Assembly (NCBI GenBank): GCA_945872795.1 | Contig: CAMCAZ010000008.1 | Span: 1-64,000, forward strand | From: Chryseobacterium gleum | Lineage (GTDB): Bacteria > Bacteroidota > Bacteroidia > Flavobacteriales_F > PHOS-HE28 | Length of the DNA: 64,000 nt | Direction of reading: 5' to 3' | In this document: one piece after another, positions 1,011 through 16,628 of the stretch | Layout: each line of letters starts with the position of its first letter | Position numbering within the stretch: the first letter of the stretch is position 1 | Notes under the pieces: model-generated | Seen by the model: the letters and a program-made list of their open reading frames with translations, nothing else | Told to the model about the DNA's origin: nothing | Databases searched by the model: none | Position numbers and translations under genes: made by a program

Positions 1011-3176
1011 ATCGATGGTAATGGTCATGCAGTCGGTGCTGGTGCACTCCGGGTGGCCCACCTGATATACGGTGACACAGTACTCGGTCGTCGCACCCAC
1101 GTTGGCGATGGGGTTGGCGATGTTCGGGTTGTTCAACCCCGCCGTTGGTGACCAACTGTACACGAAGTTGCCCCCGGGGCAGTTCGCCACACCGGACCAG
1201 GCCACACCGCTGCCCGGGCCCAGCGGCGAGGCATAGACCACACCACCCGTACCATTGAACAAGGTGAAGGATTGCTCGCCGTTGTAGATCGATCCCGCGG
1301 TGTAGCTCACTGTGATCGGATCACCTGCGCTGACCGGGATGTTCACACTTCCCTGGCCACCGGTCGGTAGGGTCCATGAGCTGGAGACTCCGTTCACCGT
1401 GATCGTCACGCTGGATCCATTGGAACCTATGCCAAACGCGCCGGTCCATCCATCGTCGAATGAATCGAACAGGGTGAGAACGTAGTTGCAGTTGGTGGGA
1501 AAGCCGCCTCCCGTGACACTGGCCCCCAGTTGGACCGGCGTGTTGCAGGTCGATGCATCAGGGCCCGCAGTGACATCCGGTCCCGGAATGATCGTGACCG
1601 TCACGGTCGTATCGTAGGTGCAGCCGAAATTGTCCGTCACGGTATAGAGGTAGTCGTAGTCCCCGACCCCCGGCGGCGTCACACAGATCTGATCGCAATC
1701 GCCACTGGTGCTGCTGATGTTGGGCCCGCTCCAGGAGGTGCTGTCACAACTGTTCCCATAGATCGGGGTGAACTCGATCAATTCATCGTACAGCGATGGG
1801 TCGAAATCGATCTCCCAGTTGCAGATGAAACCATTGTCCGATGCCCATAGGTCGCACACCTGTATGGACCACGTGCCGTTGAGCTGTGAACCGACCAGGC
1901 CAGCAAGTGAATTCAAGCTTTCGTAGGTGCCACTGGGCAGTGTTCCACCCGCGTTGTCAGCCCAGGTGCCGTTCGTTGCCGAGGCGCTCCAACAGTAGTT
2001 CCAGCAGGTCCCTTGGTCATTGGGGGAAAGGTCATCGTCCACCGGTATCCCCAGGAACGTGGCTGCACCGCCTTGTTGGTGAAGGACCACGCTCTGCCCT
2101 GTGGGACTGATGATGCTGATCACCAGGTCACCGATGAATGAATGCTCGATATCCATGCAGATCGTCAGGATCCCATTCGCGTTGGTCAGTGTTTGGCCCG
2201 GTGCGAATTGGGTGAAGGTCAGTTCGGAACTGAAGCAGTCGCCCACATTGTCCGGCAGGAAAACGCCACCGCCGAGGTTCGTTCCGGGCAGTTCGTTCCA
2301 CGTGGTCCCGTTCACCACACCATCCAGGCAAAGGGTCTCGCCGACACAGCCGGTCAATGTTCCGGTGGTGCCCGTGAACGTGGGTTCGGTGCCCACCAAT
2401 ACGGACAGGTCCACCCGGTTGGTGCTCGAACAGCCGTTGTTGTCCACGAGGTAGAGCTGCGCAGTGTATGCCCCGGGTTGCGCGTAAGTGTGTGAGACCA
2501 CGGCCGGCGCATTGTTCTGCACTGCGCCGTCACCGAACTCCCAACGTCTGCTCGCGATGGTGAAGCCCGCTGCCGCGAATGATGCGCTGCTGTTGAACGT
2601 CACACTTTCGCCGGGGCAGATGCGCAACGGGCCGACGGTGCCATGCGTGGCCACTGCGGTGGGCCGCGTGCAGGGCTGATAGCAGGTGATGGCGGCAGCG
2701 AAGACCCCGACACCGATAGTGTTGGACCGGAAGACGATCGTCAAGCAACCCGTAGGATTGCCTGCCGATGCGGACACCACCTGGCCTTGCAGGCCTGTGC
2801 CTGTCCATGAGCCGATGAACGGGGAAGCCGTGGAGTTGCCGTCATAGATCGCCATCAGGTCGATCGGGGCGGCGCCCGCCGTGCTCAGGTTGAAGGTGAT
2901 GAAGTTCAGCGAGATCGCTCCCCCTGGCGCATCCGGGCAGATCGTGTAAGTGTAGTTCTCATTGTTGCCATAGCCACCCGCTCCCTGTCCACCGCTGTCC
3001 AACAGCGCACCCACGCATGTATTGGTGCTTCCATTGAAGATCGGGAACGCCTGTCCACGCGCCGATTGGGTGATGCATGTGAGCACCACGGCAAGCATCC
3101 ATGATGCCGCCATGGCCGCGCGGCACCGCTTCAGGTTACGTTCACGAAGAAGAATGCTCGGGTACGGTCTGACCAT
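1..3176 (-). CDS. giant secreted T9SS-type modular protein, partial (C-terminus off the left edge)
   Basis: An open frame runs on the minus strand from ATG at 3176 to the window edge (about 1058 codons, no stop). A shorter start at 3113 (MAASWML) would also give a good signal peptide ending near ARGQA. Visible modules in order: signal peptide (to about residue 42), a CUB-like N-terminal domain (about 44-165), a PKD domain with WEFGDG, a proprotein-convertase P-like domain (about 260-475), a second PKD-like stretch, a module with the motif DSFDDGWTG (about 555-680), then tandem repeats of about 79 residues to the edge. The same order of modules occurs in the two genes upstream, so it is the third member of a tandem paralogous set. 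By analogy the missing C-terminus should hold a T9SS type B domain. The substrate or binding partner is unknown; adhesin-like surface protein is an inference. Confidence 0.85.
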   Translation of the reverse strand, partial: MVRPYPSILLRERNLKRCRAAMAASWMLAVVLTCITQSARGQAFPIFNGSTNTCVGALLDSGGQGAGGYGNNENYTYTICPDAPGGAISLNFITFNLSTAGAAPIDLMAIYDGNSTASPFIGSWTGTGLQGQVVSASAGNPTGCLTIVFRSNTIGVGVFAAAITCYQPCTRPTAVATHGTVGPLRICPGESVTFNSSASFAAAGFTIASRRWEFGDGAVQNNAPAVVSHTYAQPGAYTAQLYLVDNNGCSSTNRVDLSVLVGTEPTFTGTTGTLTGCVGETLCLDGVVNGTTWNELPGTNLGGGVFLPDNVGDCFSSELTFTQFAPGQTLTNANGILTICMDIEHSFIGDLVISIISPTGQSVVLHQQGGAATFLGIPVDDDLSPNDQGTCWNYCWSASATNGTWADNAGGTLPSGTYESLNSLAGLVGSQLNGTWSIQVCDLWASDNGFICNWEIDFDPSLYDELIEFTPIYGNSCDSTSWSGPNISSTSGDCDQICVTPPGVGDYDYLYTVTDNFGCTYDTTVTVTIIPGPDVTAGPDASTCNTPVQLGASVTGGGFPTNCNYVLTLFDSFDDGWTGAFGIGSNGSSVTITVNGVSSSWTLPTGGQGSVNIPVSAGDPITVSYTAGSIYNGEQSFTLFNGTGGVVYASPLGPGSGVAWSGVANCPGGNFVYSWSPTAGLNNPNIANPIANVGATTEYCVTVYQVGHPECTSTDCMTITIDNTVDAGTNGSLLICANAPAASLLNQLAGTPTAGGTWTNPSGGAHSGTFVPGADGPGIYTYTVTGAGACGSASATSTVTVVVSPIADAGSSSSLSLCSNSGAVGLIGQLGGSPQAGGTWTAPGGAAFAGTFNPAVHAPGVYTYSVAGTAPCPPATATLSISVSTPADAGNDNPVTLCTSDAPIVLVTQLGGTPDGTGTWTNPSGTAISGGIDPATATSGVYTYTVPGVAPCPNDVAQLTVAINTPPDPGTNGAITLCSSDAAVSLFAQLGGTPDAGGTWSGPSAVVGGSFNPATMIAGAYTYTVNGVAPCPSESATVTVAINTPPDPGTNGAITLCS

Positions 3177-3331
3177 TTCCTGACCACCGTGGTATTCGGC
3201 AGTGGAAAAATAGCCGGACGGACGATAGCTGGTTCCGGAAAGAACAGGTTTTGGACGGAACGGGGTTATTGTCCGACCAATTCAGAAGACCCACCATCCA
3301 AGGAACCTTCAGTTAACGCATTCCCAATGCA

Positions 3332-6300
3332 TCAACGCATCAAGTTCACGTGGCCGTAGATGATCCGCTCCTGCTGGGTGATCGCCGAACGCACGCTCAA
3401 GCGATAGTTGTAGATGCCTTGCGGAAGGATGGTGCCACCGAAGCTTCCGTCCCAGGATGCAAAACGGTCGGTGGTGCCGAAGACCTCACCGCCCCAGCGA
3501 TCGAAGATGCGCAGCTCGAATTCATCCGTGGCGATATCGTTGCCGTTCACGTAGAACAGTTCGTTGTGGCCATCGCCGTTCGGTGTGAACGTGTTGGGTA
3601 CGAACACCAGGAAAAGGTCCTCCACGAAGACAATACGGGTGGTGGTATCCGCGCAGCCCAGCTCATTGGTCACCACCAAGGTCACCGGATAATAGCCGCC
3701 GACATCCGTCGGGTAGCTGAAGGTCGGGTTCTGCTCATCGGAGCTGCCCGTTTCGTGGAAGGTCCATTCCCAGCTCACGACGTTCGGTACGGACAGGTCC
3801 TGGAACTCCACCAAGGGCTCCAGGATATTGGGCGGCTGAGGTGACCACGTGAAGTCCGCCACCGGCACCGCGATCACACTGATCATGGAATTGATGACCG
3901 TGTCCGTAGCGCATCCGTTCGGCCAGATCACTTCCACGCCCACATCATATTGTCCAGGGGTTCCGTAGGTGTATGCGAAGGATGTGCTTCCGACGGAGCT
4001 GTAGCCATCGCCGAGGATCCAGGTGATCGATGCGCCACCCGTGGTATCCACGAACGTGAACCGTACGGGCAGGGGAGAGCATCCGATCGTGGTGTCGGCG
4101 CTGTAGGCCATCGGTGGCGTCTGCAGGATGGTGATCGGCACGCAGCGCGTCACGTCAGGGGTTTCGCAGCCATCAGAGAGGGTCACACAAATGGTGGTGT
4201 CGTTGTAAAGCGTCACGGTGGTGAAGGGACTTGCGCCAGGCCCCGTGCCCCAGTCATAGGTCAACGAACCATCGCCACCAGCTCCTCCCAATGCAGCCAA
4301 GGGGATGGGCACTCCTGCGCATTCGGTGACAGGTTCCAAGGCGGGCAGGCTCAATGCGGGGTTCACGAAGACCGTCGTGGAATCCAGCTCCAGGGTGCAG
4401 CCATTGGCATCGGTGGCCAGTACCGTGTAGAGCCGGTTCGTGCTGGGGCTCACCGCATGTGGTCCATTGCCGGACAGTCCCTGATTCCAGGTCAGCGTGA
4501 TGGCTCCGGTACCACCGCTGGCCTGAGCGACCAACTGCGCAGTGCCTGTACGGCAGATCAAGGTGTCGTTCGGCGTGGTGACCCAGACCAATGGTTCGGG
4601 CTCCACGATCGTGGCTGTGATGGTGTCGATGCAGCCATTGCCCAAGGGGCCTTCTGTGATGACCACGGTGTAGGTTCCGACCCCTGTGTTGAACACATCG
4701 CCGTTGGAGGCCTGTACGTTCCGCACATCCTGACCGCTCGCATCCGTCCAGTCATAGTTCCACGGACCGCCCGTTCCGGTGGTCACGATCGTGATGCTTC
4801 CGTCGCTGGCGTTGCACAATGCATCCACTACGGAACTGTCGTTCTGCAGGACGCTGGGTGGCTGCACCATGATCGTATCCGATGTTCCGCACCAAGGCTG
4901 ACCGAAGGTGTGCACCCGGATCACGAACTCCGTGGGCTCCGTGATCTGGGTCAGCGTGGTGGTTCCGTTCGGGTTCACCACACCGGCCGCTGGGGTCCAC
5001 TGATAGACGGGCGGGCCCACACCCGCACCACAGTTCGCCGCGCCCTGCCAGGCCACGCCGCTGGGCGGACCGTTGGGTGATGCGAAGACCACGTTACCGG
5101 AGGGCCCGAACAGGGTGAACGAGTTTTCGTTGTTCCATGTCGTGCCGGCCGTGAACACCAACTGGATCACCTGTCCGGTCTGGACCGTGAAGGTCTGGGT
5201 CACCTCATCGGTCCCCGGTGGTACGGTATACGTGTTCGGCACACCGGCCACGTTCACGGTGATCTGGGCACCGCCGTTCCAGCCATCTCCGAAGCTGTCC
5301 TCCAGCACGAGGGTGTAGGTGCAGGTGGGAGGGGGAGGAGGATTGGCCACGATGGTGGCGAAGAGCGTGGCCGGATCGCTGCAGGCGGCGCCAAGCACCG
5401 CGGTCGCTTCGACAATGGGTGCGGGTGTCACGGTAACGGTGATGGTCGTGTCATAGGAACAGCCGAAATTGTCCGTGACCGTCAAGGTGTAGTCGAAGGC
5501 ACCGGGGTCGTTCATGGTGGCCGTGGCGAAATAGCCGTTGTCGGGGTCCTGCACCACACCCGGACCTGACCAGGAGACCGAATCGGAGGTATTGCCGATG
5601 ACCGGCGTGAACGAGGTCACGTCGGGGTAAAGGCTCGGGTCGAAGTTGATGGACCAGTTGCAGATCACGCCATTGTCAATGAACAACTGATCGATCAACG
5701 TGAAGGTCCATGTACCGTTCAACGGACAGCCCACCAGGTTGCTCAAGGGCTGAACACTGGTGTACGTGCCCGGAGCCAAGGCTGTGCCCTGGGAAACAGG
5801 GATCACGTTGGGGGTGGTTCCGAACTGGGAACATTGCGCCCAGGTGCCGAATGGAGCATTCGGTGCAAAGCAGTAGGTGTAACAGGTGCCCGGCACAGCT
5901 ACGGAACCTGCCGGGTCCGTATCGTTCGCATCCCCCAGGAAAGTGCCTCCGCCACCTTGTTGATGCAGCGCCACGCTCTGTCCGTTCGGGCAGGTCATCA
6001 CCAGCACCATGTCACCCATGAACGAATGTTCCATGTCCACGCAGATGGACTCCAGGTCGTTCACATCGGTCAAGGTCGATCCGATCGGAAAGATGGAATA
6101 GTCCAGGGAACTGGTGAACGGCACACCAACGTTGTCCGGCAAGGGGATGGGTCCGCCAAGGTCGATCACGGGGATCCCCGACCACGTTGTTGGCGTGGTG
6201 ACACCATCGAGTTGAATGGTCGCCCCTTCACATACCGTGAGGTCCTCCATGGTGCCAGCGAAGGACGGAACGGTGCTCACGAAGACCTGGAGGGTGGTCT

Positions 6301-7212: not shown

Positions 7213-10200
7213 CTACTTGATCAAGGTCACGTGACCAAGCAGTTCCTTGCGGGTCTGTGTTTCCATGGACTCGAAGGTGATCCGATAGGTGTATACGCCC
7301 TGTGGCAAGATCTCTCCTCCGTTCTGGAAACGGCCCTGCCAGTGGGTGTAGGGGTCGGTAGCGGTGTAGACCACCTGCCCCCAACGGTCGAACACCAGCA
7401 TCTCAAAGTCCGTGATGGCATCCATGTTCACGCTCATGCCCCAGGTATCGTTCAGGTCATCCCCATCAGGTGTGAAGGAGTTGGGGATGTAGGGCAGCAG
7501 GACGTCATCAATGATCACCGTATGGCAGATCGTATCCGTGCACTCGTTGAAATTGTAGGCGATCAGGCACACCTCGTAAGTGCCGGGTTCCTTGTTGCTG
7601 AACACGAAGGCCGGGTCCTGGGCCGTGGTGGTCATCAGACCGGCGATGTCCCAGCTGTAGCGGGTGGCATCCGTGCTGGTGTTGATGAAGCGGATGCTCG
7701 GGTTGTTCACGTTGGCCGGAATGGGACCCCAGATGAAGTCCGCCACCACGGGAGGAGGACCGGTCACCGTGATGATGTCAGATCCCAAGCACCCGGCCTG
7801 GTCCTTGATCCAGACCTGATACAGGTCCTCGCAGGCGTCCTCCAGGGTGGAGGATGCAGCCCAGGTGTTTCCATTGTCATAGCTGTACTCAACTGCCTGG
7901 GCATCATATACCAATACCCGGCCGTTGCAGTCGCCGGAACAGACCACCGGTTCGAAGTCCAGCGAATCGATCTCCAACTGGACCGGCTGGCTGATGGTCA
8001 CCGAATTCGAACCGAAGCAGCCGTTATCGTCCGTCACGGTCAGCGCGTAATCGCCAGCGCACAGGTCGATGATGGCATTCGCGCCAGGACCGGAAACGCC
8101 CGTCGACCAATCGTACTGCAGTTGGGTGGCCGTGTTGCCACCGGTCACTGAGGCCTGCACTGTCCCATCGCAATACGTGTAGCAGATCGCATCGGTCGGG
8201 GTGAAGGTGATCAGGAGGGTGTCCGTGAAGGTCATCTGCACACTGTCGATGGTGTTGCAGAAGGCTCCATCGTTCTCGGCCCAGTAGAACCAATGTGTTC
8301 CACCCGATCCGGCGGGCATGGTCACCGTGGTCAACGGAGCGTAGATGTCCCCGAAGACAGCCCCCGCAGGACCGCTCCACTGACCAACGCCGGTGTTGCC
8401 GGGTGTGGCGGTCAGTGGATTCGTCAGGTCGCAGGAGATCAGCGGCTCACCCGCATCGGGCACACCGCAGCAGATCGGGTCGTCCACGGGGATCACGGTG
8501 ATATCCAGTTGCGAAGTGGCCACACACCCGTTCGGGCTCGTCACCGTGTAGGTGTACACCCCACCGGGGTCGGAAAGCGTCACGAACGTGCTGGAGACCA
8601 CCGCGCCCGTTGCATCCGTCCAAACTCCATCATAATCCGGCGTCCCCAACAGGGAGTCCGTCATCAGGAAATCCGGCAGACCTGCACAGAACAGCAGGAT
8701 ATTATCGAGACCGGCATCGATGGACGGGTCAGGACTGACCAACACACTGTCCATCACGGCACACTCCGGGTTTCCGGAAGGATAGGCGCTCAGGTAGTAC
8801 CAGGTAGGCGTAGTCGTGTATACGTTGGTCTCCGGGTCTGTCGGATCATCGAGGCCATCCACCGGGCTCCATTCCCATACCGTGGTGGAGGTGCCTCCCG
8901 TACAGGTCACGATTCCGTTAAAGGCGATGCCGGTGGCTGGGCCGAGGGGCGACTGGTACAGGATAGCACCCAAGTTATTGTACAATGCAAAACTGTGTTC
9001 GTTGTTGAACGCACCCGGATTCCAGGTCAACTGGATGCTTGCCCCTGTGGCCACCGGTATATTGACCAATTGCGGGGACGGTCCCATCATGGTGTAGTTC
9101 GTCGGAACGCCAGCGACCGTGACAGTGAGCGAGGCTCCGTTCCATCCATCGCCCCAGGTGTCCTCCATTTCGATGACATACGTGCAGTCCTCAGGAGGTC
9201 CGTTCGCCACGATCACACCCGCCATGGGCAGCGGATCGCTGCATAGGATGATCGCTGGGCCTGCATCGATCTCCGTCTGCGGAGCAATGGTCACCGTGAT
9301 GGTGGTGTCATACGTACAGCCAAAATTGTCCGTCACGCTCAACGTATAGGCGTAGTCCCCAGCACCTGTAGGCGTCGCAGTGCCATGCAAGGGGTCGTTC
9401 GGGTCCAAGGTCAGGAACGGACCTGTCCAAGCCGCGGAATCGGCGGTCTCGATACCGAGTTCAGGTGTGAACTGGGTGACGTCCGGAATGATGCTCGGGT
9501 CGAAGTTGATGGACCAGGAGCAGATGAACCCATTGTCCGCACCCCACAGATCGGTGCTCTGGTAGGTCCATTCCCCGTTCAAGGGGCAACCGACCAGGTT
9601 GCACAGCGATTGCACAGGCTCATAGGTTCCTGGGTTGAGGGATTGTGCGGGTGGTGTCCCTGCGCTGGTCGTATTGCCCGAACCGGCGTTCGAGTTCGCT
9701 ACCCAAGTGCCATTGGTGGCCGTCTCGCTCCAGCAATAGTTCCAACAGGCTCCGAAGATCGGGTTGGCGTTGCTGTCCCCATCGTTGGGCTCGCCCAGGT
9801 AGGTGCCACCACCACCTTGTTGGTGCAGGATGGTGGTCTGGCCGTTCGGGCAGATGATCTGAAGCACAAGGTCACCCATGAACGTATGCTCCATTTCCAC
9901 GCACACAGAAAGAATGTCATTGCAGTCCGTGATGGTCTGTCCTGGATCGAACTGGGTGAAGGCAAGGCTGGAGGTGAATGGCTGGCCCACATCATCCGGC
10001 AGAAACACGCCCTCTCCGAAATTGGCGTCAGGAAGTCCGGTCCAGGTCACTGGCGTCACGATCCCAGCGAGGTCCACCGTGGCCCCGAGGCAGGTCTCCA
10101 CACTCTCTGCCGTTCCCAGGAAACTGGGCGTTGTGCTGACCAGTACTTGAAGGTCCACCACGTTCGAATTCACACAGTCGTTGTTGTCGACAAGATTCAG

Positions 10201-10890
10201 CTGGACGATATACTCGCCCGGTTCACTGAAGGAATGTGTGGTGGTCGGCGTGCTCGCCGTATTGCCATCATCGAATACCCATTCATAGGAAACGATCTCG
10301 AAAGTACCCGCTGCGTAGGATGCGGAACCATCGAAGCTCACCTCTTCGCCCACACAGACCATGGCCGGAAGCGCTTCGCTCATGCTTGCAACAGCCACGG
10401 GACGATCGCAGGGGGTGAAACAGGTGATGGAAGCCGCAAAATCCCCTGTTCCGTTCCCGTTCGAAATGAACTGTACCGTGAGACAACCGGTCGGATTGAA
10501 CGTGGTCGCGGAAACGACCAGACCCTGCAAGCCAGTTCCAGTATACTCGCCGAGGTAGGTCGCACCCGTGTTATCTCCATCCCAGATCCGGAGCCGGTCC
10601 ACCGGGTTCGGACCCGTGTTGCTCAGGTTGGCGACCAACCAGTTCAACGAGATGCCATCACCCGGGTTATCCGGACAGATCACCACCGTGAAGTTCTCGC
10701 CGTTGCCATATTGACCGTTGGGTCCTCCGCTGTCCTCCAGCACACCGACGCACGTATTGATCGTGCCCGCAGTGATGCTGAACTGCTGCGCCTGCAGTGT
10801 GCCGAACAGCGTGAACGTGGCCGCAAGGGCAACGCACAGCCCGCTGACCAAGCGGTCGGAGGGGTGTCGGAGCAATGTGCTTTTCATCAT
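7213..10890 (-). CDS. giant T9SS type B substrate, paralogue of the 3332-7042 gene
   Basis: 1225 residues from the ATG at 10890. The frame stays open back to 11058, but that extension crosses the terminator of the preceding gene and lacks a signal-like start, whereas MMKSTLLRHPSDRLVSG begins a proper signal peptide ending in LQAQ. The modules match the neighbouring paralogue: CUB-like, PKD with YEWVFDDG, P-like domain with CVEMEHTFMGDLVL, PKD-like, a DTWGDGWNG module, then several Ig/PKD-like repeats and a final PKD with YSWDIAG. The last about 90 residues (PNSFTPDGDDLND, FDRWGQVVY, LLGHVTLIK) form a T9SS type B domain. It is probably exported to the cell surface. It lies directly downstream of the sigma/anti-sigma pair but after a strong terminator, so it is probably transcribed separately. 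Confidence 0.9.
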   Translation of the reverse strand: MMKSTLLRHPSDRLVSGLCVALAATFTLFGTLQAQQFSITAGTINTCVGVLEDSGGPNGQYGNGENFTVVICPDNPGDGISLNWLVANLSNTGPNPVDRLRIWDGDNTGATYLGEYTGTGLQGLVVSATTFNPTGCLTVQFISNGNGTGDFAASITCFTPCDRPVAVASMSEALPAMVCVGEEVSFDGSASYAAGTFEIVSYEWVFDDGNTASTPTTTHSFSEPGEYIVQLNLVDNNDCVNSNVVDLQVLVSTTPSFLGTAESVETCLGATVDLAGIVTPVTWTGLPDANFGEGVFLPDDVGQPFTSSLAFTQFDPGQTITDCNDILSVCVEMEHTFMGDLVLQIICPNGQTTILHQQGGGGTYLGEPNDGDSNANPIFGACWNYCWSETATNGTWVANSNAGSGNTTSAGTPPAQSLNPGTYEPVQSLCNLVGCPLNGEWTYQSTDLWGADNGFICSWSINFDPSIIPDVTQFTPELGIETADSAAWTGPFLTLDPNDPLHGTATPTGAGDYAYTLSVTDNFGCTYDTTITVTIAPQTEIDAGPAIILCSDPLPMAGVIVANGPPEDCTYVIEMEDTWGDGWNGASLTVTVAGVPTNYTMMGPSPQLVNIPVATGASIQLTWNPGAFNNEHSFALYNNLGAILYQSPLGPATGIAFNGIVTCTGGTSTTVWEWSPVDGLDDPTDPETNVYTTTPTWYYLSAYPSGNPECAVMDSVLVSPDPSIDAGLDNILLFCAGLPDFLMTDSLLGTPDYDGVWTDATGAVVSSTFVTLSDPGGVYTYTVTSPNGCVATSQLDITVIPVDDPICCGVPDAGEPLISCDLTNPLTATPGNTGVGQWSGPAGAVFGDIYAPLTTVTMPAGSGGTHWFYWAENDGAFCNTIDSVQMTFTDTLLITFTPTDAICYTYCDGTVQASVTGGNTATQLQYDWSTGVSGPGANAIIDLCAGDYALTVTDDNGCFGSNSVTISQPVQLEIDSLDFEPVVCSGDCNGRVLVYDAQAVEYSYDNGNTWAASSTLEDACEDLYQVWIKDQAGCLGSDIITVTGPPPVVADFIWGPIPANVNNPSIRFINTSTDATRYSWDIAGLMTTTAQDPAFVFSNKEPGTYEVCLIAYNFNECTDTICHTVIIDDVLLPYIPNSFTPDGDDLNDTWGMSVNMDAITDFEMLVFDRWGQVVYTATDPYTHWQGRFQNGGEILPQGVYTYRITFESMETQTRKELLGHVTLIK

Positions 10891-11000
10891 CGGGGAGATG
10901 ATCTGTGGGAGATTGAGAGAAAAGGAACGGAGGCCTCGCACGAGACTTCCATTTTTATGATGGGCAGGCCACCCCAAAGGTTGCCTGAGTACAAAAATAC

Positions 11001-11026
11001 CAAGCCCGGGTCTGACCCCGGGCTTG
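11001..11026 (-). terminator. rho-independent terminator of the sigma/anti-sigma operon
   Basis: Ten-base perfect stem CAAGCCCGGG (11001-11010) / CCCGGGCTTG (11017-11026) with a 6-nt loop. On the minus strand it is followed by GTATTTTTGT, a T-rich tract. It sits 29 bases past the stop of the 11055-12299 gene. Confidence 0.85.
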
Positions 11027-11054
11027 GTGCTGAAGATCACTGTCCACGAAGCGG

Positions 11055-12299
11055 TCAACGGAGCAGTCCGATCGTGCCGTTATAGGTGCCCCCTAGCTTC
11101 TCGCCGTCCTTCATCTCCACCATCCAGACATAATCGCCGGTGGTGCACCAGTCGCCCTTGTTGGCGATACGCCCGTTCCAAGGCCGTTGGGCATCGGTGG
11201 TCTCATAGACCAATTGACCGGTCCGGGGGTCGTGGATGGACAGTTTGAAGCGAACACCCAGGCTACGTAAGGCCTCGGGGATGAAGACATCGTCCACACC
11301 GTCCCCGTTGGGCGAAAAGGTGCTGGTGGCCAATAGGTTATAGCCGGAATCGATGTGGATGGTCCGCTCGGAGCGGTCCGTACAGCCTTTCGTGTTGGTC
11401 ACCGTGAGCACCACCGTGTGATCACCCGCTTTCTTGAAAATATGGTCAGGATGAGCGACCTCGGAAGTTTGGCCATCACCGAAATCCCAATGGTAGGACG
11501 CTGCTCCCTGGCTTCGGTTCTCGAAGTGGACCGAGGGCACGGTATGGTCATATTCCTGCTTCAGGAACTTGAAGGATGCTTCGGGGATCTCATGGATCAC
11601 AATGCGGTCTGCTGCAGGCTTATTTTGAATGGTACCTCCGCCGACAGAGGAGTGGGACAGCATGACCTCGAACGTTCCAGCCTTGGAGAAGACGTGGCTG
11701 GGACGCGACTGATTGGAGAAACTGCCGTCGCCGAAGTTCCACAGGTAAATCCCTTCATCAGGCATATTGTCCACGGCGAAGGTGACCGCAGTACCTGGGC
11801 ATCCTTCAGAAATGCTGGGCCGGATGGTCACTTCCTTGTTCACAGCCTCAGCAATGAACGGTGCACTCGCCACTCCGCTGGAACCAGGAATTTTTGGACC
11901 TTTCCCGTTGGCTGTTTGTGATGCTATGACCCCGGTATGACTGATCAATTCCTCGGTGCCGGCCGTACTGGGTTCCATCGGGGGGACAGTACCAACCGTG
12001 CCGGGAGTCGCCGTGATGACCTCGGCCATCGGGGTCTGGTCCATGGGATCAGACCCTTTCAGGGTGGCACCGCCTTCCATGTTCACGGTGGCGCTCAGCA
12101 GGTAGATGGTCGTTCCCAATGCCACCGTTCCGCCAAGAAGCAGGGCATACAGCCCCAGCGAGGATCTCCAGGGGGCCGGCTGTGCCTTTTCCATGCGGGC
12201 CTCCAACTGGGCCCAGTCGGCCGAATTGAAAGGCACCTCATAAGGATCAAGGGCCTTTTTCAGTGATCGCTCGAACGCATCGTGAGCATTCATTGTCAT
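11055..12299 (-). CDS. putative membrane anti-sigma factor with PKD domains and a T9SS type-B-like C-terminal domain
   Basis: 414 residues (a second ATG two codons in is equally possible). A short polar N-terminus of about 47 residues (SADWAQLEARMEKA) would be cytoplasmic. One membrane segment follows at about 48-70 (LGLYALLLGGTVALGTTIYL), then two PKD domains in the periplasm with LWNFGDGS and YHWDFGDGQ (about 150-318). The C-terminal 95 residues (STFSPNGDGVDD, LSIHDPRTGQLVY, GTIGLLR) match the gliding-motility/T9SS type B domain. The gene starts 14 bases after the ECF sigma gene, in the usual position of an anti-sigma partner. The anti-sigma role rests on position and topology, not on a recognised sigma-binding motif. 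The odd feature is a T9SS-type tail on a protein with an uncleaved membrane anchor. Confidence 0.7.
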   Translation of the reverse strand: MTMNAHDAFERSLKKALDPYEVPFNSADWAQLEARMEKAQPAPWRSSLGLYALLLGGTVALGTTIYLLSATVNMEGGATLKGSDPMDQTPMAEVITATPGTVGTVPPMEPSTAGTEELISHTGVIASQTANGKGPKIPGSSGVASAPFIAEAVNKEVTIRPSISEGCPGTAVTFAVDNMPDEGIYLWNFGDGSFSNQSRPSHVFSKAGTFEVMLSHSSVGGGTIQNKPAADRIVIHEIPEASFKFLKQEYDHTVPSVHFENRSQGAASYHWDFGDGQTSEVAHPDHIFKKAGDHTVVLTVTNTKGCTDRSERTIHIDSGYNLLATSTFSPNGDGVDDVFIPEALRSLGVRFKLSIHDPRTGQLVYETTDAQRPWNGRIANKGDWCTTGDYVWMVEMKDGEKLGGTYNGTIGLLR

Positions 12300-12313
12300 A
12301 GGTCGTTAGTGGG

Positions 12314-12958
12314 TCAATGCCCCTTTGTAAGCAGTTTCTTCAGATTATGTTTCGCCTTGGCGAGATTACTTTTCGAGGTGCCCACGTTGATCCCCAGCAT
12401 CACTGCGATCTCCTTATGGGTCAGTTCCTCGAACACGTACAGGTTGAAGACGGTCCTGTAGGCGGGTGTAAGCTTCTGCATGGCATTGATGACGTCGGCC
12501 GGTTTCACCTCCTGCCAGTCGTCGTCCACCTCATCTGCACGGACATCCTCCGCATCATGGTCACCGAAATCCTCGATGCTCCGTTCCTCCCCAAGGAGCA
12601 GGAACGAGTTCTTCGTGCGGCGGAAATGGTCGATGGCCGTGTTCACGATGATCCGTCGGATCCACCCTTCAAAGCTGCCGGCACGGTTGAACTGGTCCAT
12701 GCTGCCGAAGACCTTGATGAAGCCGTCCTGAAGGATGTCCTTGGCCTGGTCCGCATTCTTGGTGTACCGCATGCACACCGCCATCATCTTGCCGTAGAAC
12801 AGTTCGTAGACCCGCTGCTGGGACCGACGTTCGCCGACCATGCAACCATCGATCAGCCCCCCATGCTGGTCCACGGGCTGGTCACCCTTCACCCAAGCAG
12901 GTGTAAGGCGAAAGCCCTTCCGGTCATCGGAAGCAGGAGGGGGCAAGGCCTCGGTCAT
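12314..12958 (-). CDS. ECF-type RNA polymerase sigma factor
   Basis: 214 residues from the ATG at 12958 (MTEALPPP). The frame is open back to 13027 but the extra residues look random. Region 2 is clear: YELFYGKMMAVCMRYTKN, then DILQDGFIKVF and the -10-recognition segment FEGWIRRIIVNTAIDHFRR. Region 4 is LTPAYRTVFNLYVFEELTHKEIA followed by a helix-turn-helix and LAKAKHNLKKLL. There is an acidic linker (DFGDHDAEDVRADEVDDD). It directs RNA polymerase to a specific promoter set. It forms an operon with the downstream putative anti-sigma gene (14-base gap), and the tandem T9SS substrates that follow are candidate targets, by inference only. Confidence 0.9.
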   Translation of the reverse strand: MTEALPPPASDDRKGFRLTPAWVKGDQPVDQHGGLIDGCMVGERRSQQRVYELFYGKMMAVCMRYTKNADQAKDILQDGFIKVFGSMDQFNRAGSFEGWIRRIIVNTAIDHFRRTKNSFLLLGEERSIEDFGDHDAEDVRADEVDDDWQEVKPADVINAMQKLTPAYRTVFNLYVFEELTHKEIAVMLGINVGTSKSNLAKAKHNLKKLLTKGH

Positions 12959-13059
12959 TGGAGTTGACAAGATAGCCATACGGGGGCAAGACGCGCACAT
13001 GGTCAAAAGGATGCCTCCCCTCCTCATCTTCTTTTCAAGCGGGACTGGGGAGCATCACC

Positions 13060-13148: not shown

Positions 13149-14093
13149 ATGAAAGTTACTGTGGTAGGGGCCGGCAACGTTGGCGCGACCTGCGCTGATG
13201 CCGTAGCCCGCTGGGAGCTTGCCAATGAAGTGGTCCTGTTGGACATCAAGGAGGGTTTCGCCGAAGGCAAGGCCCTGGATATCTGGCAGACCGCGCCCAT
13301 CAACCTGTTCGATTCGCGCATCACCGGGTCGACCAACGATTATTCGAAGACGGCCGGAAGTGACGTGGTGGTCATCACCAGCGGCCTGCCACGCAAGCCC
13401 GGCATGAGCCGCGACGACCTCATCGCCACGAATGCCGCCATCGTGAAGAGCGTGACCGAGAACGTGGTGAAACATTCGCCGGAGGCCATCATCATCGTGG
13501 TGAGCAACCCGCTGGATGTGATGACCTATTGCTCGTACATCAATAGCAAGCTGCCCAGCCAGCGTGTGTTCGGCATGGCCGGTATCCTGGATACCGCCCG
13601 TTACCGGGCATTCCTCGCCACGGAACTGAACGTGAGCCCCAAGGACATCCAGGCGGTGCTGATGGGTGGCCACGGCGATACCATGGTTCCTTTGCCGCGC
13701 TACACCACCGTTGGTGGCATACCGGTCACCGAACTGATCGCCAAGGACAAGCTGGATGCCATCGTGGACCGTACCAAGAAGGGTGGCGGAGAGATCGTCA
13801 ACCTGCTGGGTACCAGTGCTTGGTACGCCCCAGGTACAGCCGCTGCCCAGATGGTGGAGTCCATCGTACGCGACCAGAAGCGCGTGTTCCCCTGCTGCGT
13901 CTGGCTGCAGGGCGAGTATGGCCTGAAGGACATCTACATGGGTGCTCCAGTGGTGCTGGGCCGCAAAGGTGTGGAGCGCATCATCGAGCTGAAGCTGAAC
14001 GCCGAGGAGATGGAACTGGTGAAGGCCAGTGGCAAGGCTGTGAAAGAGGTCATGGACGTTCTGGATAACATGGGGTCCGGCGTTACGGCCTGA
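13149..14093 (+). CDS. mdh: malate dehydrogenase
   Basis: 314 residues from the ATG at 13149. The frame is open upstream to 12840, but that part overlaps the divergent sigma gene and lacks homology features, while MKVTVVGAGNVG is the canonical start. The enzyme interconverts malate and oxaloacetate with NAD in the TCA cycle. Seen: the dinucleotide-binding loop GAGNVGAT, aspartate of the NAD-specific LLDIKEG strand, the substrate-binding loop GLPRKPGMSR (arginines typical of MDH rather than lactate dehydrogenase), VSNPLDVMTY, and the active-site histidine in GGHGDTMVPL. The length is normal for the LDH-like MDH group. It is transcribed alone between a promoter and a strong terminator. Confidence 0.97.
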   Translation: MKVTVVGAGNVGATCADAVARWELANEVVLLDIKEGFAEGKALDIWQTAPINLFDSRITGSTNDYSKTAGSDVVVITSGLPRKPGMSRDDLIATNAAIVKSVTENVVKHSPEAIIIVVSNPLDVMTYCSYINSKLPSQRVFGMAGILDTARYRAFLATELNVSPKDIQAVLMGGHGDTMVPLPRYTTVGGIPVTELIAKDKLDAIVDRTKKGGGEIVNLLGTSAWYAPGTAAAQMVESIVRDQKRVFPCCVWLQGEYGLKDIYMGAPVVLGRKGVERIIELKLNAEEMELVKASGKAVKEVMDVLDNMGSGVTA

Positions 14094-14160: not shown

Positions 14161-14350
14161 CTTATGGGTGCCTCGAAGAACCTCGAACGTCCCGAGGCCT
14201 ATTGGGAGGCACGCATGATCAGCGTTCGGCCAGACAACCTGCCTGCCTGGCCGGTAGGCAACGAAATATGGCCGGCCGAGAGCAAGTGCACATGGAAAGC
14301 GCCCCTGCCTCCATCGCCGCCGGAGCGGGGTTCTTCGAGGTACCCTTAAG
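14161..14350. repeat. MITE-like element with 22-base terminal inverted repeats
   Basis: The bases 14161-14182 and the reverse complement of 14329-14350 agree at 20 of 22 positions; the common core is CCTCGAAGAACC. The roughly 145-base interior has no convincing gene and includes short imperfect palindromes (for example around 14239-14259). The right repeat contains the stop codon (14346-14348) of the convergent FG-GAP gene. This accounts for the stretch between mdh and that gene. Confidence 0.65.
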
Positions 14351-16628
14351 GCCTTCCGGTCACGATCAGGCGCTGGGTGAACGACCCGGTCGGTCCCATC
14401 AACCGCACCACGTATACCCCGGTATTCAAGCCGCTGATATCCAGCGTGATGCGTTCACTGGTGATCGCCTGTTGATGAATGACCTGTCCCTGTGTGTTCA
14501 AGAGGGTCACCGTGGTCGGGCCCGCAAGCATCTGGCGAAGGATCAGTTCCACTCCATCCGTGGCAGGGTTGGGGTACAGACTGAACACGGTGGATGCGTT
14601 CGGCGCGTTCACGGCGGAGCCCAGGTCGCTGCGCCAGAAGCTCAGTCCTCCCCGGTAGTTGCCGACGACCATGTCCAGAACGCCATCTCCGGTGTAGTCA
14701 TGCAGGCAGAGTCCGCTGCGGATGCCATCCCGCAGGTCCATGAAGGTGCTGTCCAGCAAGGTCCAGGTACCCTCCAGGTTGCCATCGATGTCCCCATAAT
14801 GGTATAGCCAACCGGACTCCGAACCCAAAAGCAGCTGCCGACCACCCGTAGGCGCGACGAAGAGGTTGGGAACAGAGTAGCCGGTAACATTCCACCATTC
14901 CACTGTGCTTACGCCACCGATGTTCTCATTCGTCAGCGTCCAAGCCGGCGAAGTGGCGGTGCCGGTGTTGCGGTAGTAGTTCAGGTTGCCGTTGCGTTCG
15001 CCGATCAACAGGTCCAACCGTCCATCCTGGTCCAGGTCCGTGAACTGGGGGGTGGCGAACTGCCCCACATCGATGGCTGAACCGGAGGCCTCCAGCACAT
15101 TGGCTTGGAGCAGCGTGAACTGGGCCACGCCGCCAACAGGGCTGTTCTGGTAGGCGTGCAGGCGGCCTTGGAGATCACCGATGTACATGTCCTGGTCGCC
15201 ATCACCATCCACATCGCCGAAGGCCGGGTACATGCTCAGGCCGATCCCGCTGGTGGACAGACCGGCATAGTCATCGGTGACCAGCGTGAATGCGGGGGCC
15301 AGCGCGGTGCCCGTATTGCGGTACAGCGCGAGCTTGCCGATATAGGCGCCGGCCGATGCGAAGTAGCCATGGTTGGCCACCACCAGGTCCATCAGGCCAT
15401 CCCCATCATGGTCAAAGGCAATGGGGAAGGCCCCCTCGCCGTGGTCGATCATCCGGTCCTGGAACACATCCTCCTGCACCCGCTCGAAGATCGGTGCGGC
15501 ATCCGTACCCGCGTTATGGTAGTACCACACACTTTTCGCATTCTCCGAAAGGGAGGTGGCGTTGCCGCTGACCAGCAGGTCACGCTTGCCATCGTTGTCC
15601 ACATCCTCGAAGTAGCCCCCGGGAAATAAGGGAAGTTCGACCGACGTATCATAGCTCGGGAACAGCGTGTCCTCCACCGTCATCAGGGCTTCTTCCACGG
15701 AGCCCCCGTTGTAGAGCCCGACCAGGTTGTTGTAACTGATGTCTCCCAGTAGCACCTCCTTTACACCATCACCGTTCAGGTCCAGCGCCAGAACAGTGCT
15801 GCCCGCATGCGCCCGGTCGTCCTCGGAGGGGTCGGTGGGGCGTTCACCGTTCAGGCCGTTGCCGCCGATCTCGGGGTCGGGGACGTTGAAGTTGCAGGGC
15901 ACATTCAGGGTGACCGAGTTGGTGTTGAAGTTCTCGGCGAAAAAGCCCCAGCATTTGTTCCGCAGTTCGAACTTCAGGCTGTCGCAGGTGCCATAGGTCT
16001 CCACGCTCAGGTTCTTGTGATACTCCAGGTAGGAGCCCAACAGGCTGAAGGTGAGCACGTCCAGGTCCCCATCACCATCCACGTCATCGATCGCAGGCAG
16101 GTCCACTTGGGAGATGAACAGGTTGGCCATCGTTCCAGCTCCGGAAGGCGAGATGTAGTTCGAGTTCACCCGGAAGGTGACCAATTCAAAGGATAGGTCC
16201 TCACCGATGCTGGTGTTCTTGTACACCGAGAACCCGGCCTGGGAATAGGTGTAGATGTCCTCCTTGCCATCGCAGTTGAAGTCACGCAGCAGCACCCAGT
16301 CGTGCAGTTCGGGTAAGGGATGGACGTTCTGGTAAGCGCGGGTCAGGCTGTAGGCCATGGTGCCGGGCTGGCCGTTGTTCAGCAGGGTGGTCACCGTGTT
16401 CCCCGACCGGTCGAAGATGAACAGGTCCTTCAGGCCGTCGCCGTTCAGGTCGATGTCGCTCACCTGGATGAAGTTGGCGCCTCCGGACCATGCCAGATCG
16501 AGCGACTGGCCCGCACGGGTGACCGGCACAGCGCCATCGAAGAACAGGTCCCATTGGGCGTTCGCATCCAGGGCGGCGCAAAGGGCCAGCAGGATCAGGG
16601 GAGAGTGGTTCAGTGCGCGCATGTTCAT
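14346..16628 (-). CDS. secreted FG-GAP/VCBS-repeat protein with T9SS type A tail
   Basis: 760 residues. A signal peptide ends at DANAQ (residue 25). The body contains many FG-GAP/VCBS units with calcium-binding-like acidic loops: DIDLNGDGLKDLFIFD, DVDGDGDLDVLTF, DLNGDGVKEVLLGD, DVDNDGKRDLLVSG, DHDGDGLMDLVVAN, DVDGDGDQDMYIGD, DLDQDGRLDLLIGE. This implies a beta-propeller. The last about 80 residues (SLYPNPATDGVEL to VYVVRLMGPTGSFTQRLIVTG) form a type A T9SS sorting domain. It is probably surface-attached or released, with unknown ligand. The TAA stop lies inside an inverted-repeat element, so the extreme C-terminus may have been changed by an insertion. Confidence 0.9.
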   Translation of the reverse strand: MNMRALNHSPLILLALCAALDANAQWDLFFDGAVPVTRAGQSLDLAWSGGANFIQVSDIDLNGDGLKDLFIFDRSGNTVTTLLNNGQPGTMAYSLTRAYQNVHPLPELHDWVLLRDFNCDGKEDIYTYSQAGFSVYKNTSIGEDLSFELVTFRVNSNYISPSGAGTMANLFISQVDLPAIDDVDGDGDLDVLTFSLLGSYLEYHKNLSVETYGTCDSLKFELRNKCWGFFAENFNTNSVTLNVPCNFNVPDPEIGGNGLNGERPTDPSEDDRAHAGSTVLALDLNGDGVKEVLLGDISYNNLVGLYNGGSVEEALMTVEDTLFPSYDTSVELPLFPGGYFEDVDNDGKRDLLVSGNATSLSENAKSVWYYHNAGTDAAPIFERVQEDVFQDRMIDHGEGAFPIAFDHDGDGLMDLVVANHGYFASAGAYIGKLALYRNTGTALAPAFTLVTDDYAGLSTSGIGLSMYPAFGDVDGDGDQDMYIGDLQGRLHAYQNSPVGGVAQFTLLQANVLEASGSAIDVGQFATPQFTDLDQDGRLDLLIGERNGNLNYYRNTGTATSPAWTLTNENIGGVSTVEWWNVTGYSVPNLFVAPTGGRQLLLGSESGWLYHYGDIDGNLEGTWTLLDSTFMDLRDGIRSGLCLHDYTGDGVLDMVVGNYRGGLSFWRSDLGSAVNAPNASTVFSLYPNPATDGVELILRQMLAGPTTVTLLNTQGQVIHQQAITSERITLDISGLNTGVYVVRLMGPTGSFTQRLIVTGRP

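Follow-up and report, generated by a model that had tools for sequence, protein, structure and literature searches.

The window analysed here is a stretch of 64,000 nucleotides in which an ECF sigma factor gene and the gene of a membrane protein, hereafter the partner, lie in tandem on the reverse strand, separated by exactly 14 bases (12300-12313). The short sigma protein matched both Sigma70_r2 (5.6e-16) and Sigma70_r4_2 (1.1e-14), as required of an ECF factor. The longest frame of its gene starts at 13027, with candidate starts at 12979 (MAIL..., 221 aa) and 12958. The initial annotation had recognised the gene correctly and begun it at 12958; the start at 12979 is likelier, since in many relatives the matching ATG comes 9-12 nt after the end of a conserved promoter. 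The same annotation had described the sigma gene, the 14-base gap and a protein with a short cytoplasmic part, one membrane helix, two PKD domains and a type-B-like tail, a layout borne out by Pfam and by an AlphaFold2 model. A malate dehydrogenase-like gene (13151-14093, + strand) is divergent from the sigma gene and adjoins it in relatives too; as far as visible, it is functionally unrelated. Near the pair, an FG-GAP repeat protein with a T9SS type A tail is encoded at 14346-16628 (- strand), and no promoter element of the sigma-gene kind was found before this gene. The coordinates of all features are listed in Table 1.

Table 1. Features of the sigma/partner locus and of the adjoining cargo gene, in window coordinates.
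Feature	Position	Strand	Basis or remarks
Predicted autoregulatory ECF-type promoter GGCATCCTTTTGACCATGTGCGCGTCT, -35 GGCATCC, -10 CGTCT	12989..13015	-	Footprint kept in genus; across the class, sigma orthologues are preceded by GGCAACC-N14/15-CGTC
ECF sigma factor gene, 221 aa from ATG at 12979	12314..12979	-	Sigma70_r2/r4 matches; conserved ATG 9-12 nt after promoter in relatives
Partner protein, 414 aa, presumed anti-sigma factor of Dma-like layout	11055..12299	-	Pfam, NCBIfam, orthologue survey, AlphaFold2, N-terminal profile
Cytoplasmic part, residues 1-50, two short helices, near-invariant Trp29, presumed sigma-binding unit	12150..12299	-	Only part common to CHU_C, barrel, PorP and short-tail partners
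Membrane helix, about residues 51-69; charge places the N-terminus inside	12093..12149	-	Sequence, orthologue hydropathy, model
Disordered, poorly conserved tether, residues 70-155	11835..12092	-	pLDDT <50; genus identity 0.14
Two PKD domains, residues ~158-317	11349..11828	-	Pfam; second domain Z 13.4 to solved PKD 6aem
CHU_C / type-B-like C-terminal domain, residues 321-414, without cargo RW pair	11058..11339	-	Pfam; column comparison with cargo tails; models
Intrinsic terminator ending the two-gene unit	10999..11028	-	12-pair stem and T run; also in most relatives of the clade
Promoter-like element GGCAACC-N16-CATCA before cargo gene, variant -10	10958..10985	-	Near-same position in loci L022, L023, L024; related element in L131
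Giant PKD/CHU_C cargo gene, start approximate	about 7213..10888	-	Syntenic in genus, separate transcription unit

In the partner protein, Pfam detected PKD_4 in two stretches (2.8e-26) and CHU_C at 41.6 bits against a cut-off of 27, while the stricter type B model of NCBI, TIGR04131, scored 29.1 bits, below its cut-off of 35. The first 50 residues contain six basic ones, and a low-complexity stretch follows the hydrophobic segment at 51-69. Since this is the first hydrophobic stretch and lies behind a charged 50-residue segment, neither sequence nor model gave a Sec signal peptide, and the membrane helix is likely to be an uncleaved anchor. The AlphaFold2 model, built with eleven orthologous sequences, placed helices at residues 8-17 and 28-37 with low confidence and the membrane helix at 51-67. 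Residues 44-154 had pLDDT values below 50 and were followed by two PKD sandwiches and a C-terminal sheet domain, all three confident. Within the genus, the cytoplasmic unit and the PKD domains are about equally conserved (mean pairwise identity 0.62 and 0.61-0.62), the tail somewhat less (0.53) and the tether far less (0.14). The difference between tail and tether indicates that the tail, unlike the tether, is under selection. Foldseek and VIA-align searches with the model returned PKD folds and generic Ig-like matches and none specific for the tail, an absence that is not informative; according to PMC12618676, no type B structure had been solved.

A search with the N-terminal 166 residues of the partner found the protein in 22 of 23 genomes of the genus, the own genome included, and weakly in three other families. 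The matches in the genus had a sigma orthologue, about 65-77% identical, directly upstream. When the search was seeded with the sigma factor instead, relatives were detected in 252 of 296 genomes of the class at E 1e-25. For 60 genomes, a single locus each was then selected, and the gene next after the sigma gene was examined. The sigma gene and a partner gene were adjacent in nearly all of these loci, including many from other families. That the two genes stay paired in all but one of the 23 genus genomes, and in many families besides, shows that the layout is not due to chance. The search of related genomes proposed in the initial annotation thus recovered the same layout, with CHU-type partners in about twelve families. 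A second pair lies on contig 56 of the own genome (sigma gene 3950-4603, partner gene 2932-3972, both on the - strand). Its partner has two tandem N-terminal units, a membrane helix and a degenerate CHU_C tail (27.1 bits), and the pair is preceded by a promoter-like element, GGCAACC...GCATCA, like that before the giant cargo gene of the window.

Four partner types were distinguished in the class, each with a membrane helix, which is followed by PKD domains and a CHU_C-like tail, by a short tail (240-320 aa in total), by a generic beta-barrel or by a PorP/SprF barrel. Among 63 partners scanned with Pfam, the far end matched CHU_C in 33, OMP_b-brl_2 in 6 and PorP_SprF in 3; the PorP_SprF matches in the partners of family f11 scored 46-71 bits (cut-off 22.3). 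A profile made from the N-termini of CHU-type partners found most of the short-tail, PorP and barrel partners, with E values of 1e-13 to 1e-6 in the clear cases and 0.023 for the best of 263 control frames, and missed a few short-tail and barrel partners that are among the most distant. Trp29 is the sole internal position conserved in at least 90% of the 63 partners. The N-terminal unit is repeated two to eight times in the PorP type, in some barrel partners and in the second partner of the own genome. In family f11, three single frames (L185:3074-4969, L191:3201-4967, L199:3214-4968) behind an ECF sigma gene encode four to five tandem N-terminal units, a membrane helix and a PorP/SprF barrel. 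A barrel-type partner (L210:3017-5035) carries about eight tandem units, and it may be that several sigma molecules are held per anchor.

A quick tree of the sigma factors required 6 changes of partner type, compared with 26.5 for shuffled labels; PorP-type partners fell into one clade (support 99) and the CHU type needed two changes. So few changes point to a far end that was swapped a few times behind one sigma/N-terminus pair, and the N-terminal unit is presumably what the sigma factor touches. An outer-membrane module is entirely absent from the short-tail sister lineages, and the system can therefore do without it. It is conceivable that the partner is an anchored structural protein that shares an operon with the sigma gene by happenstance, given that no anti-sigma model of Pfam or NCBIfam matched its N-terminus. 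We consider this very improbable, as sigma and partner genes are adjacent in nearly all loci and the N-terminal unit is common to all four end types, among them barrel proteins of Dma layout with reported anti-sigma action. The partner is very probably an anti-sigma factor.

The C-terminal domain was compared, column by column, with the tails of exported type B cargo (65 distinct anchored tails and 102 cargo tails). The anchored tails keep F (0.97), P (0.98), the NGDG segment, WxG (0.98/1.00), YxW and G (0.98), and all tails that have a letter at the near-final R/K position conserve it (1.00). Thus F-S/T-P-N-G-D-G, WxG, YxW, G and the terminal R/K stand at cargo-like levels across about twelve families. 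The RW pair of cargo (R 0.81, W 0.83) is replaced in anchored tails by mixed residues, and W is not among the three commonest letters there. The strict pattern [DNS]R[WYF]G occurred in 23 of 23 cargo tails of the own genome, in 53 of 81 other cargo tails and in 0 of 78 anchored tails. A terminal domain structurally unlike type B domains would have spoken against the initial reading; the predicted strand order was equal in the anchored tail and in the neighbouring cargo tail, for which the model was only moderately confident. No PorP/SprF-like gene was found beside the pair, where the flanking frames are cargo and malate dehydrogenase-like. Such a gene beside type B cargo is common but not obligatory.

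PorP/SprF-like proteins are bound by type B domains (PMC9143113), whose secretion depends on them (PMC12618676). Each of five conserved motifs in the SprB tail of F. johnsoniae is described as needed for secretion (PMC12618676), and the RW pair may belong to one of them. The near-complete set of type-B positions minus the RW pair suggests that anchored tails bind without being exported. Equally, a tail without the RW pair could have ceased to bind T9SS parts. The PorP/SprF barrel that ends the sister partners is the strongest sign from these comparisons, and it suggests that the meaning of the tail is still T9SS-related. Alternatively, the periplasmic part might be cut from its anchor and exported by the T9SS as real cargo, so that export or its failure controls the remaining stub and the sigma factor. 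The complete type-B-like fold, the conserved C-terminal residues and the cargo-like PKD domains would fit this possibility, which we nevertheless hold to be quite unlikely: the protein has no signal peptide, its tails lack the RW pair, and all five type B motifs tested in F. johnsoniae, which may include that pair, were needed for secretion.

In the genus, the sigma gene is preceded by GGCATCC-N15-CGTCT (17 distinct sequences), by GGCAACC-N15-CGTCT or, in some genomes, by both. In the clade with the upstream element form, the second element lies inside the reading frame, and part of its conservation could therefore be at the protein level. Across the class, most loci carry (A/G)GCAACC-N14/15-CGT(C/T) at a distance of about 120-142 nt upstream of one fixed codon; of the 59 loci scanned, 36 had the strict form and most others close variants. 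By position, conservation and box type, the element is probably an ECF-type autoregulatory promoter. Autoregulation of this kind is usual for ECF sigma genes, although not obligatory. In 24 genomes of the genus, the strict GGCATCC-type pattern gave 33 matches and the reversed pattern 2. The wider pattern GGCNWCC-N14-GCGTCW gave about 60 matches against 61 for its reversed control, which is no overall enrichment. Many single matches are therefore due to chance, and we limit our claim to recurring sites.

Such a site was found before the T9SS-associated porV2-porU2 operon, which encodes porV-like and C25 proteins: GGCCACC or a one-letter variant, N15 and CGTC, usually 8-16 nt before the start, in at least 19 of 22 relatives. 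We had first taken this operon, which in the own genome is locus L339, for porV-porU; NCBIfam identified it as porV2-porU2 (NF052325, 491.8 bits; NF052324, 611.9 bits). GGCCACC differs from the -35 box of the sigma gene itself at one position. Because three T9SS loci were inspected and the -35 box was relaxed by one letter, the match rests mainly on conservation and exact spacing. No element was found before the gldK operon, with its porP, or before the true porU, and T9SS core genes were dropped as targets. Further recurring sites in the genus precede secreted proteins with T9SS type A tails and proteins with SprB repeats. Although other ECF sigma factors could read the same promoters, we infer that the sigma factor of the window is the one that would read those of porV2-porU2 and of the cargo genes. 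A conserved 63-residue protein of no known family (MSRSYKIALILKSRSSLPVY...) lies right behind the element in L281 (contig 17 of the own genome, site 6151-6178, - strand), L306, L313 and L316, with a small membrane protein (about 40 residues) encoded next. A DUF5684-type membrane protein was observed behind GGCAACC-N15-CGTC sites in four genomes (L390, L394, L397 and L402; the family was assigned from the L390 protein).

The giant CHU_C cargo gene, which follows the pair in at least seven relatives, had been named as a natural target of the sigma factor in the initial annotation. This claim did not hold in the form given: a strong terminator (stretch z -3.3), kept in most relatives of the same clade, separates the cargo gene from the partner gene, so that they are not one operon, and read-through from the pair into the cargo gene was rejected. 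In the window and in several relatives the terminator is followed by a variant element, GGCAACC...GCATCA, which resembles the element before the pair on contig 56.

The explanation that we favour as a whole, with moderate confidence, is an ECF sigma factor held by a membrane-spanning anti-sigma factor, a variation on the Dma layout, whose tail docks on the T9SS or on a shuttle, and whose sigma factor is released to its targets. The first ~45 residues of the partner would hold the sigma factor at the inner membrane, and the disordered tether of ~85 residues would let the periplasmic PKD-PKD-CTD end reach toward the outer membrane. There, a PorP/SprF-type shuttle or the T9SS probably serves as the docking site of the C-terminal domain, which would report the presence or occupancy of that site; the domain's loss of the RW pair of exported cargo makes docking without export probable. 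If docking changed, or if the tether were pulled, the sigma factor would be let go, probably through proteolysis. Once free, it would drive transcription of the pair itself, of porV2-porU2 and of some T9SS cargo genes. We think it somewhat more probable that the outer end contacts the T9SS or its shuttles than that it does not. The putative logic that blocked export releases the sigma factor is doubtful.

The main competing explanation is a general envelope-stress pair of the Dma/Reo kind, in which PKD and CHU_C domains form a folded periplasmic sensor of damage, a ligand or crowding, and the likeness to T9SS cargo reflects ancestry without contact. For Dma1/2 and EcfO-Reo, the reported links are to vesiculation or outer-membrane stress and not to the T9SS (PMC13088901, PMC13114119), and both the loss of the RW pair in anchored tails and the short-tail lineages, which work without an outer module, would agree with such a pair. 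Cargo-like levels of type-B positions across about twelve families, the PorP/SprF barrel in the same slot of a sister family and the related promoters before porV2-porU2 are less easily explained in this way, and we regard a general envelope-stress pair as unlikely, though the most serious of the alternatives. The core of the initial annotation, an anchored anti-sigma factor whose cargo-like tail reads the state of the T9SS, was strengthened by the recurrence of the tail in about twelve families, by the PorP/SprF barrel in its place and by the related promoter before porV2-porU2 and several cargo genes; it needed correction in that the tail, which lacks the RW pair, departs from that of ordinary cargo.

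How Bacteroidota sense the load or failure of their T9SS is largely an open question; in P. gingivalis, the activator of PorY is undetermined (PMC7712824). The fact that the partner ends in an export tag and that of a sister lineage in the receptor of this tag suggests that through this pair the cell may monitor its own export machinery. A presumed anti-sigma factor ending in a type B domain in many families, and in its receptor in another, is a concrete candidate for a T9SS sensor. It brings with it a predicted docking partner and predicted target promoters that are testable in culturable relatives. More tentatively, surveillance of the T9SS could be class-wide: one orthologous pair would have as its sensor end either a non-exportable type B domain or its PorP/SprF receptor, both sides of the contact having been used in evolution to report occupancy.

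Our searches of the open-licence literature turned up no anti-sigma factor that carries a T9SS tail or a PorP barrel; several known systems are related in part. PorA and PorXY-SigP of Porphyromonas gingivalis share with the pair that a CTD-bearing protein feeds an ECF sigma factor controlling T9SS genes; unlike the partner, PorA is a secreted surface protein that acts via a two-component system and is not an anti-sigma factor. In Flavobacterium psychrophilum, an ECF promoter class (SM6) holds porU, gldN, a PG0189 homologue and one sigma/anti-sigma pair (PMC9723704). It resembles the promoters described here in its CGT-type -10 box and in combining T9SS genes with such a pair, a likeness of promoter and gene content; its genes differ in part from those found here. 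Type B cargo (TIGR04131/CHU_C; SprB, PG1035) resembles the partner in having PKD domains and a CHU_C domain, most of whose conserved positions the partner keeps, whereas the partner has no signal peptide, is anchored in the inner membrane, has lost the RW pair and scores below the TIGR04131 cut-off.

The closest likeness is to the Dma proteins (Dma1 and Dma2, with the ECF21 sigma factors Das1 and Das2) and to EcfO-Reo. In B. thetaiotaomicron, Dma proteins consist of an anti-sigma domain, a membrane helix, a disordered tether and a C-terminal outer-membrane barrel, in this order, and are encoded beside ECF21 sigma genes; the effect of deleting Dma2 requires its sigma factor (PMC13088901). Reo of Phocaeicola is described as spanning all compartments (PMC13114119). 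Shared with our pair are an N-terminal anti-sigma unit, presumed in the partner, the single membrane helix, the long disordered tether, an outer module, the neighbouring ECF sigma gene and the restriction to Bacteroidota. The sigma-binding domain of Dma is likened to the N-terminal unit of the partner by its described layout, and this unit is common to barrel partners of related sigma factors. In contrast to Dma, the outer module of the partner is PKD-PKD-CHU_C and not a C-terminal beta-barrel, and where Dma is linked to nigD or PUL genes, T9SS-associated genes are among the predicted targets here. By this analogy the partner appears to be a Dma-like variant and not a Dma, which would widen the Dma idea from barrel-anchored anti-sigma factors to those that bear a secretion signal.
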